Source: Sporosarcina jeotgali (lineage in GTDB: Bacteria; Bacillota; Bacilli; Bacillales_A; Planococcaceae). From it: a stretch of DNA of 64,000 nucleotides. Shown here piece after piece: positions 47,284 through 54,563 of the stretch. Position numbers and translations under genes: made by a program. The stretch covers positions 1,035,001 through 1,099,000 of the forward strand of contig NZ_CP116341.1 of the NCBI RefSeq assembly GCF_033304595.1, given 5' to 3'. The stretch's first letter is position 1. Every line of letters begins with the position of its first letter. Below the pieces are notes generated by a model that made no database searches, was not told the origin of the DNA, and saw nothing but the letters and a program-made list of their open reading frames with translations.

Positions 47284-48546
47284 ATGGCGACGACAGTTAT
47301 CTCGTTTATAATTATTTTTGGCTCATTAGTCTTTTTCCATGAGTTTGGACACTTCCTATTTGCAAAGAGAGCGGGCATTATGGTTCGTGAGTTTGCAATT
47401 GGAATGGGACCGAAAATAATCGGTATTCAAAAAGGTGAAACACTTTATACGGTTCGGTTGCTTCCGCTTGGCGGATATGTACGGATGGCAGGCGAAGATT
47501 TTGACACCGTCGAATTGCTGCCAGGCTATCGTGTCGGATTGATTTTAAATGCGCAAGACGAAGTTACTAAGATTTATTTGAATTCAAATGTGTCGAATCC
47601 GGATGTGCTTTTTCTAGAAACAGAAGAAGCTGATTTAAATGATAAATTATTTATTAAAGGATACGACGATGAAGGGAATTTGGTTCGTCTGTCCGTGTCA
47701 AGAACTGCTGTTATCCACGAGAAGGGGCAGAAGACACTCATCGCGCCGAAAGATCGTCAATTCGATTCAAAACCATTAATGGGAAGATTTCTAACGATTC
47801 TCGCAGGGCCGGTCTTTAACTTCATTCTTGCGTTCTTCATCTTTATTGCACTTGGTTTATTGAATGGTGTTCCGACAAATGAACCGATAATTACAGAAGT
47901 CCAAGATAATAGTCCAGCGGAAGCAGCTGGTGTTCAAAAAGGTGACTTTGTAAAATCTTCAAATGGCGTAGAAATGAAGACGTGGAATGAATTCACAGAA
48001 ACCATACAGGATAACGCTGGTAAGTCGATTGATTTAGAAGTTGAACGTGACGGCGAACTGGTCGCACTGCAAGTAACTCCTAAAGAAACGGAAGAAGCTG
48101 GAGTTAAACAAGGTCAGATTGGTGTATTCTATACAAGTCCAGTCGAAAAGAACCCTTTGAAAGCCATAGCGTATGGCGCGCAGCAAACCTGGTTCTGGAT
48201 TGCAAAAATATTTGAGTTGCTCGGATTGCTTGCAACCGGTCATTTTACTTTGGATGCATTGTCCGGGCCAGTAGGAATATACAAAGCAACAGAAGAAGTC
48301 GCACAGTACGGTATATTCAATCTTATGAATTGGGCAGCTGTATTGAGCATTAACTTAGGAATCATGAACCTTCTGCCGCTGCCTGCATTGGATGGCGGAA
48401 GATTGCTGTTCTTCTTATTTGAAGCGGTCCGCGGTAAACCGATTGATCGTCAAAAAGAAGGTATGGTTCACTTTGTAGGAATAATGCTGCTTATGTTACT
48501 TATGCTGGTTGTTACATGGAACGATATTCAAAAGTTCTTTTTCTAG
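47284..48546 (+). CDS. rseP: RseP/RasP site-2 intramembrane zinc metalloprotease
   Basis: Cleaves membrane-bound anti-sigma factors and signal-peptide remnants. The 420-residue product has zinc-site HEFGH at residues 19-23, a PDZ domain in the middle (NSPAEAAGVQKGDFVKS), and the second active-site motif NLLPLPALDGGRL. Four membrane helices are visible. AAGGTGGG precedes ATG 47284. Confidence 0.96.
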   Translation: MATTVISFIIIFGSLVFFHEFGHFLFAKRAGIMVREFAIGMGPKIIGIQKGETLYTVRLLPLGGYVRMAGEDFDTVELLPGYRVGLILNAQDEVTKIYLNSNVSNPDVLFLETEEADLNDKLFIKGYDDEGNLVRLSVSRTAVIHEKGQKTLIAPKDRQFDSKPLMGRFLTILAGPVFNFILAFFIFIALGLLNGVPTNEPIITEVQDNSPAEAAGVQKGDFVKSSNGVEMKTWNEFTETIQDNAGKSIDLEVERDGELVALQVTPKETEEAGVKQGQIGVFYTSPVEKNPLKAIAYGAQQTWFWIAKIFELLGLLATGHFTLDALSGPVGIYKATEEVAQYGIFNLMNWAAVLSINLGIMNLLPLPALDGGRLLFFLFEAVRGKPIDRQKEGMVHFVGIMLLMLLMLVVTWNDIQKFFF

Positions 48547-48590
48547 AAATGATAATCGTATTGATCAGAGGGTAATGGAGGCGACGCACG

Positions 48591-50192
48591 ATGAAACAAT
48601 CAGGGGTATTCATACCTGCTGCTGAAACTTCAAATAACTGTCTGGCAGATCAGCTTCTCACTCAATCTGGTTATGTTCAAGAAACATCTGAAGGCATGTA
48701 TGCGTATTTTCCGTTAGCTGGAAAAGTTTTAGAGAATATAAAGCGTGTGATCCGTGAGGAGATGGAGTCAGCGCGTGTCCTCGAACTGGATCTTCCATAT
48801 GAACAATTTGAACATGCGACAGGAAAATCAGATGAAATGATTTTGCTGTCGTTCATTGCAAAAGAAGTTATCAGCTCCGAGCAGCTTCCGATATCTGTAT
48901 TTCACATCAAACAGAATGTCAGAGAGACCTTGCATTCTATCCAGGAATCCAGTCTTCTGTATGCAAAAGAATATTCATTAGTGAGTGGCTATTCTTTTCA
49001 TACCGATACGGATGAAGCAAAAGAGAATGGAGAGACGTTATTTTCTGTCTTTTCAACAATTGCAAATAGAATCGGACTCCCATACCGCGTAATTGAATCA
49101 CAAAACGCTAATGGGAGAACTGAATACGAATTTATTGCATTTTCCGAATGCGGAAAAGAATCTTATGCGCAAAGTACTGATTCATCGTATACGTCAAAAG
49201 CTGTGCTTGCGGAAGCTTTCCAAGAAGAACCTCTGGAATCCAAAAAGCTTAAAAAGGCTGAAAAAATAAGCGGACATGGCAAAGAAATTGCCCCGCTGGC
49301 TGAATCGCTTGGATTAGACAGCTCTCAAACAGTTCAAGCATTTTTGTATGACATTGATTCGAAACCTGCACTCATTCTTCTTCGTGGAGATCATGAGCTG
49401 AATGAGATGAAGTTAGCTAAAGCTTTTGAGGGTTCAACAATCCGTTTATTGACCCCAAGTGAGGTAAAGAAAGAGTTAGGTGTTGAACTGAACACGATTG
49501 GTCCTGTGCAACTGCCATTCGGTTTACCGGTTTATGCTGACTACGGTGTCTCCGCTATTGTGAATGGGATTTGCGGCGCAAATGAAAAGGATACATTCCT
49601 GCTGAATGTTAACCCGGAACGTGATTTTACAGTTGACCGTTACGTAGATATCCGTCTTGTGAAAGAAGGAGAGCCATCCCCTGATGGAAATGGAACGTTA
49701 ACGTTTCGTCAAGGAGTCACATTCGCCCGCATTATTGAACCAGAACCCGTTTTCAGTACAATTAACGTTGCAAACAAGGAATCCCTTGAAATTTTAACTG
49801 GATATTATTATATAGATTTGACCCGTTTGTTTGCAGTGACGGCTGAACATTTTAGTGACTCACTGGGATTGAAATGGCCAATTCAACTTGCTCCGTATGA
49901 TATACATTTACTGATTGAGGATATTCAAAATGAAAGTCAGCAGCAGTTAGCAGAAGAGATTCACTCTGTCATGAATGGATACCGATATCGTGTGCTGTTT
50001 GATGATCGAAATGTAAGCCCTGATAGTAAACGTAAAACTTCCAACCAGTTAGGCGTCCCGGTAAAAATAGTAGTTGGTGATGACGCGGAAGCTGGAATGG
50101 TCCAAGTGACGTACCGAATGATGGGTGAGCCGGTTAGCATGCGGAAAGAAGAAGTGACAGAAAAACTTCAGGAATTTTTCAGAACAGAGTAA
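48591..50192 (+). CDS. proS: Prolyl-tRNA synthetase homologue with degenerate catalytic motifs
   Basis: The 533-residue frame is intact, starts with a proper ribosome-binding site (TGGAGGCGA) and sits in the B. subtilis proS position. It aligns end to end with bacterial ProRS: N-terminal SGYVQETSEGMYAYFPLAGKV, insertion domain (residues ~225-370, with RGDHELNEMK, GANEKD, NVNPERDFT) and C-terminal anticodon domain. The active site has eroded. The GPTHEE loop is missing (residues ~80-92, about 25 residues shorter). Motif 2 RGREF.MKD reads YAKEYSLVSG (124-133). GHIFQLGTKYS reads ARIIEPEPVFS. Motif 3 GYGIGVSR reads YYYIDLTR. The editing-domain lysine of the usual TVK(T/S)L reads TVQAFL. Aminoacylation activity is doubtful. 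Confidence 0.85.
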   Translation: MKQSGVFIPAAETSNNCLADQLLTQSGYVQETSEGMYAYFPLAGKVLENIKRVIREEMESARVLELDLPYEQFEHATGKSDEMILLSFIAKEVISSEQLPISVFHIKQNVRETLHSIQESSLLYAKEYSLVSGYSFHTDTDEAKENGETLFSVFSTIANRIGLPYRVIESQNANGRTEYEFIAFSECGKESYAQSTDSSYTSKAVLAEAFQEEPLESKKLKKAEKISGHGKEIAPLAESLGLDSSQTVQAFLYDIDSKPALILLRGDHELNEMKLAKAFEGSTIRLLTPSEVKKELGVELNTIGPVQLPFGLPVYADYGVSAIVNGICGANEKDTFLLNVNPERDFTVDRYVDIRLVKEGEPSPDGNGTLTFRQGVTFARIIEPEPVFSTINVANKESLEILTGYYYIDLTRLFAVTAEHFSDSLGLKWPIQLAPYDIHLLIEDIQNESQQQLAEEIHSVMNGYRYRVLFDDRNVSPDSKRKTSNQLGVPVKIVVGDDAEAGMVQVTYRMMGEPVSMRKEEVTEKLQEFFRTE

Positions 50193-50249: not shown

Positions 50250-53200
50250 ATGGACGCTAAAAGAAAGATGTCAATGCTGCTCCAGCAAATCGAACTGACG
50301 GAAGACGCGTTTGTTATTCATTTTCAAGACGCTGAATTAGAGCGGGTGGATATCTTTAAAAAGTCGAGGGTTTGGCAATTTACTGCAACCCTGGAAAAGC
50401 CGTTACCGTTTGATGTGTTCCAACTATTCCGTAAGCGTGTGGAACAGACTTTTGCCAATATCGCTGCGATTCGTTTGAAAATCAGTACGAAGACGGAAGT
50501 GCATGAGGCGGAAACTATTCTATCCTACTGGCCTGCAATCATGGATGAGCTGGGTGAAGTTTCGCCGCCGATTCGTGAAGCATTGACATCGCAAAAACCA
50601 ACTATTGCTGGAGATAAAATTACAGTTTGCTGTCTGAATGATGTCCAGCAGCAGACGTTGAAAAATAAGTATGGTCATCTCATTTCAAATGCATATGAGT
50701 CCTTTGGCTTCCAGCGAATCTACCCGGAGTTCACAATTTCAGAAGCACCGGTGGAAGAGGAACAAGCCCGCGCTGCATTTTTTGAAGAACGAAAAGCTGA
50801 GGAAGTCGCTTATGCTCAAAAAGCATTGGAAGCAATGCAGCAGCGTGAAACGACTAAGAAAGATGGAGGTGCTGCGCCTACAGGTCCTATTTCTTTCGGA
50901 ACACCAATTCGCGGCGATGAACCGTTAATGGAAATCCAGCAGATCCAAGACGAAGAGCGCCGTGTGACAATCGAAGGCTTTGTTTTCGATGCCGAAGTGA
51001 GAGAGCTAAGAAGCGGCCGATCATTATTAACCTTAAAAGTGACGGATTATACCGACTCTATTCTTGTGAAGATGTTCTCCCGTGATAATGAGGATGCAGA
51101 CCTCATGAAAGCACTCACGAAAGGTAAATGGGTAAGAGCTCGCGGAAGTATTCAAAATGATACATTCGTTCGTGACTTAATCATGATGGCACAAGATATT
51201 ATGGAAGTTGCACCAGTTGTCAAAAAAGACACAGCACCTGAAGGGCGTAAACGTGTTGAATTACATACACATACAAAGCTAAGTCAAATGGACGGGGTCT
51301 CTTCTGCGGGTGCACTTGTTGCACAGGCAGCAAAATGGGGTCACCCTGCAATTGCCATTACAGATCATGCAAACGTGCAGGCTTTTCCGGATGCCTATAA
51401 TGCAGGGAAGAAGCACGGCATTAAAGTGTTGTTTGGTTTAGAAGCGAACCTTGTGGATGATGGTGTTCCAATCGTTTATGACGAGCAGCATCGGTTACTC
51501 GAAGAAGATACGTTTGTCGTCTTTGACGTAGAGACCACAGGGTTGTCCGCTGTGTACGATACCGTAATTGAACTTGCTGCAGTCCGTGTTAAAAACGGAG
51601 AAATCATCGATACATTTGAACGTTTTTCAAATCCTCATCACCCTTTGTCTTCTACCACAACCGAATTGACAGGGATTACAGATGATATGGTGAAAGATGC
51701 ACCTGAAGTTTCTGAAGTGATGGTCGATTTCATAGAGTTCATAGGTGACTCCATTTTAGTCGCGCACAATGCTTCGTTTGATATGGGCTTCTTTTATGAA
51801 TCCTGCAAAAAGGCAGGAATTGAAACCGCAGATTATCCAACAATTGACACATTAGAATTAGCTCGTTTGCTGTACCCGGATCTCAGAAATCATCGTCTGA
51901 ATACATTAGCTAAAAAGTTCGACATCGATTTGACTCAGCATCACCGTGCCATATACGATACGGAAGCGACTGCGCATCTATTTGTAAGATTGATGAAAGA
52001 CGCCTCTGAAAAAGGGATTGCCTGGTTAGATGACTTTAACAAAAACGTCGGTGAAGGGGATGCGTACAAGCGTTCACGACCTAACCATTGCACGCTGCTT
52101 GCTACCAGCGATGAAGGATTGAAGAATTTATTTAAACTGGTTTCGTTCTCTCACATGGATTATTTCTATCGAGTGCCGAGAATTCCGCGGTCGCTGCTCG
52201 TGAAATACAGAAAAGGGCTGCTCGTCGGCTCAGGCTGTGACAAAGGCGAAGTGTTTGAAGCGCTTATGCAAAAGTCGATTGAAGAAGCAGAAGAAGTTGC
52301 AGGTTTTTATGATTACTTGGAGCTTCATCCAAAGCCGGTTTACAATCATTTGATTGAGCTGGATCTCATTCGCGATGAATGGAACTTGGAAGATATCATG
52401 CGTAAAATGATTAAACTGGGGAAAAAGAAAGGTCTCCCAGTAGTGGCAACAGGAAACGTACATTATATTGAGGAAACGGACGCTGCGTATCGTCAGGTAC
52501 TTGTCCGTTCTCAAGGTGGAGCGAATCCGATGAACCGTCACGAATTGCCAGCTGTCCATTTCAGGACAACGGATGAAATGCTGGAAGAGTTCGCGTTCTT
52601 AGGACCTGAAACAGCAGAGCAGATCGTCATAGATAATCCACAGGGTATTGTCGATCGGGTCGGAGATGTTAAACCGATCAAAGATGATCTTTATCCTCCT
52701 GAAATTGAAGGGGCTGACGAAGAAGTACGCCAGTTGACGTATACGATGGCCCATGACATCTATGGGGAGACATTGCCGGATATAATTGAAGCCCGTATTG
52801 ATAAGGAATTAAAGTCGATTATCGGAAACGGGTTTGCGGTTATTTATTTAATCTCACATAAGTTGGTTAAAAAATCATTGGATGATGGTTATTTGGTTGG
52901 TTCTCGCGGTTCAGTTGGTTCTTCTCTTGTTGCGACGATGATGGAGATTACTGAAGTGAATCCAATGCCGCCGCATTATGTTTGTCCAACATGCAAGCAA
53001 TCGGAGTTCTTCTCCGATGGTTCAGTCAGTTCCGGTTTCGACTTACCGAACAAAAATTGCCCGGCTTGCGACATCCCGTATACAAAAGACGGTCATGACA
53101 TTCCATTTGAAACGTTCCTTGGATTTAACGGTGATAAGGTACCGGATATCGACTTGAACTTCAGCGGTGAATATCAGGCAAACGCCCACAACTATACGAA

Positions 53201-54563
53201 AGAACTTTTCGGTGAAGATTATGTGTACAGAGCAGGAACTATTGGAACTGTTGCTGAGAAAACAGCTTACGGATATGTTCGCGGCTATATGAACGATAAC
53301 GGCATCAATTTGCGCGGAGCCGAAATCGATCGGCTCGTTCAAGGGTGTACAGGTGTTAAACGAAACACCGGACAGCACCCGGGCGGTATCATTGTAGTAC
53401 CGGATAATATGGAAATCTACGACTTTACGCCGATTCAATTCCCGGCGGATGACGTTGGTTCTAGCTGGAAGACGACTCACTTTGACTTCCACTCCATTGA
53501 TAACAACTTGCTCAAGCTCGATATTTTGGGTCATGATGATCCGACGATGATTAAAATGCTGGAAGACTTGTCAGGAATGGATCCTAAAACGATTCCGCCT
53601 GACGATCCTGGTGTTATGGCGCTGTTCAGCGGGACAGAATCGCTTGGTGTAACAGAAGAGCAGATTAACTGTAAAACCGGAACGCTCGGGGTGCCGGAGT
53701 TCGGTACCCGATTTGTTCGCCAGATGCTTGAAGAAACGAAGCCTTCCACGTTTTCCGAGCTCATACAAATTTCAGGATTGTCTCACGGAACGGATGTATG
53801 GCTCGGCAACGCACAGGAATTGATTCAGAATAAAACGTGTGTACTGGCAGAAGTAATCGGCTGTCGTGACGATATTATGGTGTATTTAATCTATCAAGGT
53901 CTGGAACCAGCCATTGCCTTTAAAATAATGGAGTCTGTGCGTAAAGGTAAGGGACTGACACCTGAATTTGAAGAGGAAATGAAGAAAAACAAAGTCCCGG
54001 CATGGTACATTGCTTCCTGTAAGAAAATTAAGTACATGTTCCCGAAAGCACACGCCGCTGCTTATGTTCTCATGGCACTCCGGATCGCTTATTTCAAAGT
54101 GCATCATCCGATAATGTATTATGCAACGTATTTTACAGTGCGTGCGACGGACTACGATTTGGCAACGATGATTAAAGGTCCAGCGTCTATTAGAGTAAAA
54201 GCGAAAGAAATCTATGACAAAGGCTTAGACGCTTCGCCGAAAGAAAAAAGTTTAGTCACGGTACTTGAAATCGCTTTAGAGATGTGTGAACGAGGGTTTT
54301 CATTTGCTAAACCTGATTTATATAAATCATCGGCTACTGAATTCATCATCGAGGGCAATACATTGATTCCGCCATTTAATGCTATCCCTTCACTAGGTAC
54401 AAACGTTGCGAGAACAATTGTAGAAGTTAGAGATGACGGGGAATTCCTTTCTAAGGAAGATCTTCAGCGCCGCGGACGTGTTTCCAAAACAATTACAGAA
54501 TACATGGATTCGCTCGGCTGCCTGGAAGGATTGCCGGAAATGAATCAGCTGTCATTGTTCTAA
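50250..54563 (+). CDS. polC: DNA polymerase III alpha subunit, PolC type
   Basis: Main replicative polymerase of low-GC Gram-positives. The 1437-residue product has the same length as B. subtilis PolC. In order: N-terminal domain, OB fold (~235-330), split PHP domain ([13 protein letters not shown] near 337; [13 protein letters not shown]), DEDDh 3'-5' exonuclease (VFDVETTGL near 427), palm with catalytic PDIDLNFSG near 965, a four-cysteine zinc site (CPTCKQ, CPACDI), and a C-terminal clamp-binding peptide QLSLF. No frameshift or motif loss is visible. Confidence 0.98.

Follow-up and report, generated by a model that had tools for sequence, protein, structure and literature searches.

Gene and Locus

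The window, a stretch of 64,000 nucleotides of Sporosarcina jeotgali (contig NZ_CP116341.1, positions 1,035,001 to 1,099,000), carries a gene related to that of bacterial-type prolyl-tRNA synthetase (ProRS), here called proS2. It is located between genes which we take to be rseP and polC. The features of the locus are listed in Table 1. A full-length frame with a good ribosome-binding site had been reported in a first-pass annotation of this DNA, and both were found as described.

Table 1. Features of the proS2 gene, its neighbors, and the leader of the second ProRS gene. Positions refer to the window unless another locus is named.
Feature	Position	Strand	Remarks
rseP, upstream neighbor	47284..48546	+	Marks native proS locus
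GGAGG ribosome-binding site	48577..48581	+	9 bases 5' of ATG, read from sequence
ProS2-derived pseudo-synthetase	48591..50192	+	533 aa, ATG start, intact frame
Junction of 26-residue deletion, approximate	48807..48815	+	Reference positions 77-102, absent in 10/10 clade members
GKSDEM replacing GPTHEE (proline-binding segment)	48822..48839	+	Alignment
Arg111 = motif 2 arginine (reference Arg140)	48921..48923	+	Kept in 10/10
LLYAKEYSLVSGYSFH replacing LLRGREFIMKDAYSFH (motif 2)	48954..49001	+	Alignment
Editing (INS) domain core, PF04073 match	49281..49616	+	67.2 bits, cut-off 25.5
Gln249 at editing lysine site (reference Lys279)	49335..49337	+	Clade: Q6/R2/H1/K1
Phe336 at INS histidine site (reference His366)	49596..49598	+	Phe in 10/10 clade members
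ARIIEPEPVFS replacing GHIFKLGTTYS	49725..49757	+	Alignment
GYYYIDLTR replacing GCYGIGVSR (motif 3)	49800..49826	+	Alignment; arginine kept
Anticodon-binding domain, PF03129 match	49932..50174	+	39.0 bits, cut-off 21
Rebuilt anticodon-domain loop NVSPDSKRKTSNQ	50010..50048	+	Alignment
polC, downstream neighbor	50250..54563	+	Marks native proS locus
T-box leader upstream of ProS1, window genome (C1)	L044, 3006-3228	-	T-box scan

Of 121 genomes checked, 119 showed the gene order rseP-proS2-polC; in the remaining two the contig ended there. A clade of ten genomes including that of the window (the window clade) shares this form, its ProS2 proteins being 62–100% identical, full length and free of stops in all ten cases; GGAGGCGA precedes the proS2 ATG in every member. 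Eight named relatives were obtained, seven from Sporosarcina (65–97% identity) and one from Shewanella (27%). The Shewanella locus contains a ProRS frame in which GPTHEE and motif 3 have the usual form.

The window protein was homologous over stretches 1–69 and 76–527 (E = 4.7e-86) to 2j3l, which we take to be the solved structure of Enterococcus faecalis ProRS. Its scores against the profiles for bacterial ProRS, NF006625 and TIGR00409, were 312.8 and 255.9 bits, below the respective cut-offs of 558 and 306.7, so that by score it falls outside the bacterial ProRS equivalog. The class II core profile PF00587 likewise remained below its cut-off (24.2 bits against 29.3). An AlphaFold2 model built from eight input sequences had a mean pLDDT of 38.4, and no conclusion rests on it.

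Residue Changes in the Window Protein

Residues are numbered according to the intact reference G190 unless a window number is given. The substitutions quoted in the first-pass annotation (YAKEY/LVSG, ARIIEPEPVFS, YYYIDLTR, TVQAFL, and NVSPDSKRKTSNQ) were all present, and the segments RGDHELNEMK and NVNPERDFT persisted as it had stated. The GPTHEE loop, described there as deleted, is replaced by GKSDEM, and the main deletion lies just N-terminal to it.

The statement that nearly every catalytic signature had been lost proved too strong. Changes were present at 22 of the 37 charging-site positions scored, and the proline-binding and class II motifs are thus no longer intact; nevertheless, Arg140 of motif 2, Arg447 of motif 3, Glu111, His164, and Glu209 were kept in all ten members of the window clade. 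Glu142, Arg151, Arg153, and two motif 3 glycines were replaced in most or all of them. New residues in the former pocket included T109S, H208Y, G442Y, and G444D. Invariance within the clade was found at 19 of 25 former pocket positions compared with 115 of 215 positions elsewhere in the core (p = 0.035, a weak test on positions chosen by the analysts).

The editing site was affected as well. Glutamine in place of the editing lysine, as previously noted, was confirmed for the window protein, but the residue varies within the clade, lysine being lost in nine of ten members; the INS histidine was lost in all ten. The window protein has a PF04073 domain but lacks the lysine K279 expected of a trans-editing factor of the INS superfamily. 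Taken together, these replacements suggest that both prolylation and Ala-editing have been lost in the window protein, which is unlikely to retain ordinary charging or editing.

The Second Prolyl-tRNA Synthetase

A second complete ProRS, which the first-pass annotation had supposed to charge the tRNA, was found by searching the window genome. This protein of 479 aa, ProS1, is of the archaeal/eukaryal type (TIGR00408, 581.8 bits; cut-off 437), and it was present in all ten window-clade genomes. No PF04073 match was found at the place of ProS1; the two matches in the window genome were ProS2 and a protein resembling YbaK, whose own score of 151.2 bits fell slightly short of a cut-off of 153.25.

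A T-box leader above the gathering score was detected upstream of ProS1 at 12 of 17 loci scanned. By clade, it was found in eight of ten window-clade genomes (the misses being L050 and L053), in four of four of clade A, and in none of three of clade D, the last two being clades with changed ProS2 described below. A T-box search across 31 genomes was too unspecific to be informative. At the expected specifier position of the leader in the window genome, a CCU proline triplet was read by eye.

ProS2 was not found in genera g4 (4/4 genomes) and g14 (19/19), in which ProS1 was present, so ProS1 can evidently serve alone. Two of 25 genomes of genus g18 were also without ProS2. In the window clade, tRNAPro is probably loaded by ProS1. 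As a separate observation, genus g4 gave no PF04073 match at all.

Recurrence across the Family

The survey comprised 261 genomes of one bacterial family, 235 of which had a ProS2 match; a search at the level of the order gave these same 261 genomes, and the recurrence described here refers to the family. After setting aside G214 (contig end), G224 (stops in frame, in an assembly of 83% completeness and 9% contamination), and G249 (divided between two contigs), 232 remained scorable, with 173 scoring at E < 1e-242 and 59 worse than 1e-240. All 59 low-scoring genomes carried ProS1. By elimination, 82 genomes were without a ProS1 match; they comprised 80 with a high-scoring ProS2, one in which it was cut by the contig end (G214), and one with neither protein (G010). 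Among the 80 scorable ProS1-negative genomes, no low-scoring ProS2 was found.

An alignment of 119 ProS2 sequences, from which G224, G214, and G249 were left out, separated the same groups. The 59 low-scoring forms had at least 4 of the 37 charging sites changed and the other 60 at most 2, the 37-site score and the cut at 4 being our own choice and the cut arbitrary. ProS1 was present with 42 of the 60 intact forms and absent with 18 (Fisher p = 1.7e-6, a value that ignores relatedness). Since all changed forms but also many intact ones are ProS1-positive, ProS1 appears necessary but not sufficient for the change. Ten or more changes were observed in 36 of the 119 forms, namely in the window clade (W), clades A, B, and C, much of clade E, and two members of clade D; forms with four to nine changed sites may still charge tRNA.

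In a tree of RseP and the N-terminal part of PolC (117 genomes, leaving out G214, G237, G238, and G247), the changed forms fell into eight clades separated by intact genomes. A tree of the ProS2 editing and anticodon domains yielded seven changed clades, with the window clade joining clade A and the root state ambiguous. Both trees were calculated by FastTree and midpoint-rooted. By parsimony, the changed ProS2 would have arisen seven to eight times within the family. The window form, which had been presented as the event of one lineage, is accordingly the extreme end of a recurrent change.

A parallel replacement of GPTHEE by xxSDEx (T109S and H110D) was observed in the window clade, in most of clade D, and in part of clade A.

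Selection on proS2

Codon-model omega for window-clade ProS2 was 0.096 overall, with 0.083 for the core, 0.128 for INS, and 0.060 for the anticodon domain. In the same genomes, rseP and the N-terminal part of polC gave 0.046 and 0.047, respectively. Fixing omega at 1 cost 715 lnL and fixing it at 0.25 cost 114. For the pair of the window genome and G212, dN/dS was 0.078 in the core and 0.147 in INS, with zero nonsynonymous changes in the anticodon domain, and the near-identical pair G225–G226 showed a core dN/dS of 0.59 on very few changes. The first-pass annotation had named dN/dS near 1 together with broken frames in close relatives as evidence against its reading; the opposite was observed. 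Simple decay is rejected for the window clade as a whole.

Neither relaxed selection nor a broken frame, which would mark a pseudogene, was found. Loss of charging residues under purifying selection, with another prolyl synthetase in the same genome, is instead expected of a pseudo-synthetase, a synthetase-derived protein with a function other than charging. The combination of lost charging and editing residues, strong selection, and a conserved pocket points to a non-charging, putative binding protein, which probably binds something through its core and anticodon domain.

INS was the loosest domain in the window clade, in clade D, and in the intact groups g1-near and g1-other, and the core was the loosest in clades A, C, E1, and E2b. 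For this comparison, 11 of 15 genomes of clade D and 7 of 18 of E2b were sampled, and clades B, G171, and G062 were left out. That INS is the loosest domain in the window clade points to a core that is once more, or still, notably constrained; since INS is looser than the core in intact forms too, the pattern taken alone does not signal that the core has acquired a new function.

In clade D, 4 to 11 of the 37 charging sites were changed, and the core omega of 0.047 was within the range of intact groups (0.016–0.054). The ProS2 of this clade may be an enzyme of another kind that remains active.

Domains Retained in the Changed Lineages

Near-invariant positions were defined on the 60 intact forms, and the background was determined on held-out intact genomes in 50 random halves; for core, INS, and anticodon domain it came to 0.8, 1.8, and 1.6% of positions changed, respectively. 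In lineages A, B, C, D, E, G171, and G062, core loss reached 36, 28, 36, 24, 34, 10, and 17%, respectively. The corresponding losses were 12, 13, 21, 10, 15, 9, and 22% in INS, which was looser than background in all seven, and 1.4, 0, 3.6, 1.9, 8.8, 0, and 0% in the anticodon domain. Core loss exceeded that in the anticodon domain in all eight lineages, the window clade included, and that in INS in seven of eight, by a small margin in G171 and not in G062.

The editing residues were largely kept in the 49 changed forms outside the window clade: K279 in 46, G331 in 42, G334, P335, and D347 in 49 each, and H366 in 42. In the work on E. coli ProRS cited here, editing by INS is described as requiring that the anticodon be recognized by the anticodon-binding domain, and the K279A variant served as an editing-defective enzyme (PMC3973320). 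An anticodon domain and editing lysine retained beside a degenerate charging core form the pattern expected of a trans-editing ProRS, and from this pattern we infer such a role for the non-window changed lineages; plain tRNAPro binding would fit it too. The tRNA-binding role suggested in the first-pass annotation agrees with the related lineages, whose anticodon domain is nearly unchanged, but is uncertain for the window clade itself, where the loop has been rebuilt.

The window clade had lost 67% of near-invariant sites in the core, 35% in INS, and 38% in the anticodon domain. Given the loss of the editing lysine and histidine and of these anticodon-domain sites, the trans-editing reading is not transferable to the window protein.

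A free-standing editing protein was considered as the cause of the editing loss in the window clade and rejected, a third PF04073 match being present in only five of the ten clade genomes. The YbaK-like protein was also dismissed as a clade-specific feature: 67 of 68 members of the genus have a PF04073 match beyond one, and only G187 has a single match. At an E value of 0.001, the sole match in G187 comes from its own changed ProS2, and YbaK was not found.

Proposed History of ProS2

With moderate confidence, we favor an account in which ProS1 displaced ProS2 in charging, and ProS2 was kept first as a trans-editing or tRNAPro-binding partner and later, in the window clade, as a non-catalytic factor. 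Proline charging would have been taken over by ProS1, of archaeal/eukaryal type and without an editing domain, after which the bacterial-type ProS2 would have lost charging-site residues and remained under selection at the protein level. In a first stage, represented by the other lineages, the anticodon domain and the Ala-tRNAPro editing site would have been kept, with the full-length protein serving ProS1 as a partner that edits in trans or binds tRNAPro. In a second stage, reached in the window clade, the editing residues and the anticodon-domain loop would have been altered and the old active-site pocket conserved with new residues. The window protein of today would most likely be a non-catalytic factor binding tRNA or ProS1.

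The retention of both class II arginines in all ten members means that ligand binding or an altered enzyme may also be considered. According to one such alternative, which we regard as unlikely, ProS2 still works as an enzyme but on another substrate; in it, the arginines would bind ATP and the redecorated pocket would activate another acid in a PoxA-like manner. The conservation of Glu111, His164, and Glu209 beside the arginines, the invariant pocket positions, several of them with new residues, and the low core omega would be in line with such an enzyme, but the replacement of Glu142, Arg151, Arg153, and the motif 3 glycines and the deletion of 26 residues before the proline-binding segment argue against it.

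We attach a similarly low probability to the idea of a subunit for sensing or regulation, resembling HisZ or GCN2, that would bind uncharged tRNA, proline, or adenylate and regulate ProS1 or translation. The same five conserved residues, together with a strongly constrained anticodon domain carrying a rebuilt loop, would be consistent with this role; the linked genes considered were the native neighbors.

Slow pseudogene decay, with ProS2 made redundant by ProS1 and drifting while its frames happened to stay open or were kept so by the operon, would agree with the confinement of low-scoring forms to ProS1-positive genomes and with the complete loss in g4, g14, and part of g18, but it is highly improbable given the omega values and open frames of the window clade, an anticodon domain near background in clades A–D where decay should hit all domains, and a synonymous excess that the need for polC expression, unlike the open frame, could not explain.

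A broader form of the favored account is put forward tentatively, as a possibility that we would not yet bet on: displacement by an editing-less ProRS may repeatedly convert the native enzyme into a protein devoted to proofreading tRNAPro, and one Sporosarcina clade may have re-recruited this proofreader, the old pocket and rebuilt anticodon domain recognizing a different ligand or RNA.

Significance and Comparison with Known Systems

Within the family, ProS2 forms a natural gradation that begins with intact proteins, passes through partly degenerate ones, and ends with strongly diverged ones. Along it, the parts of a single synthetase that serve charging and editing have separated several times, always at one gene position. 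This series makes it testable whether proofreading alone suffices to keep a whole synthetase, and also what a synthetase becomes once proofreading is given up. The occurrence of similar changes several times in the family suggests that an old enzyme was reused for another job, for example tRNA quality control. In practical terms, the label "proline--tRNA ligase", when given from similarity alone, may be wrong for such proteins.

Compared with bacterial-type ProRS carrying INS (NF006625/TIGR00409; 2j3l), the window protein is alike in length-wide homology, domain order, and native locus, but differs in scoring below the cut-offs and in having the proline-binding segment, motifs 2 and 3, and the editing lysine and histidine replaced. 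YbaK and ProXp-ala are presented in PMC11295145 as free-standing trans-editing factors of the INS superfamily and described there as single-domain. As far as that description goes, the other changed lineages resemble them in having a related editing domain, with the editing lysine kept and charging residues lost; they are unlike them in that the protein here has the build of an entire synthetase, anticodon domain included, and the window protein is without the lysine.

Non-charging or repurposed relatives of synthetases are already known. LeuRS-I of Sulfolobaceae is reported in PMC9437257 as a relative of synthetases that has been kept but does not carry out aminoacylation, and HisZ in PMC7373986 as a HisRS paralogue with another job; by these accounts both belong to other families and are extra copies, whereas ProS2 is a displaced native gene. 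ProRSx of Streptomyces, like ProS2 a divergent relative of bacterial ProRS, is described as catalytically active and as having a tRNA of its own (PMC9437257), whereas in the present case charging residues were lost from the native copy. No report of a ProRS undergoing such a change was found by title or abstract in the open-licence literature searched.

The nearest functional precedent, as portrayed in PMC7373986 and PMC11295145, is the archaeal ThrRS-ed, which as a protein of its own, equipped with an anticodon-binding domain, edits in trans beside a charging synthetase without editing. The two cases differ in that ThrRS-ed belongs to a threonine system, whereas in ProS2 the core is present but degenerate, and the change is placed seven to eight times in one bacterial family.
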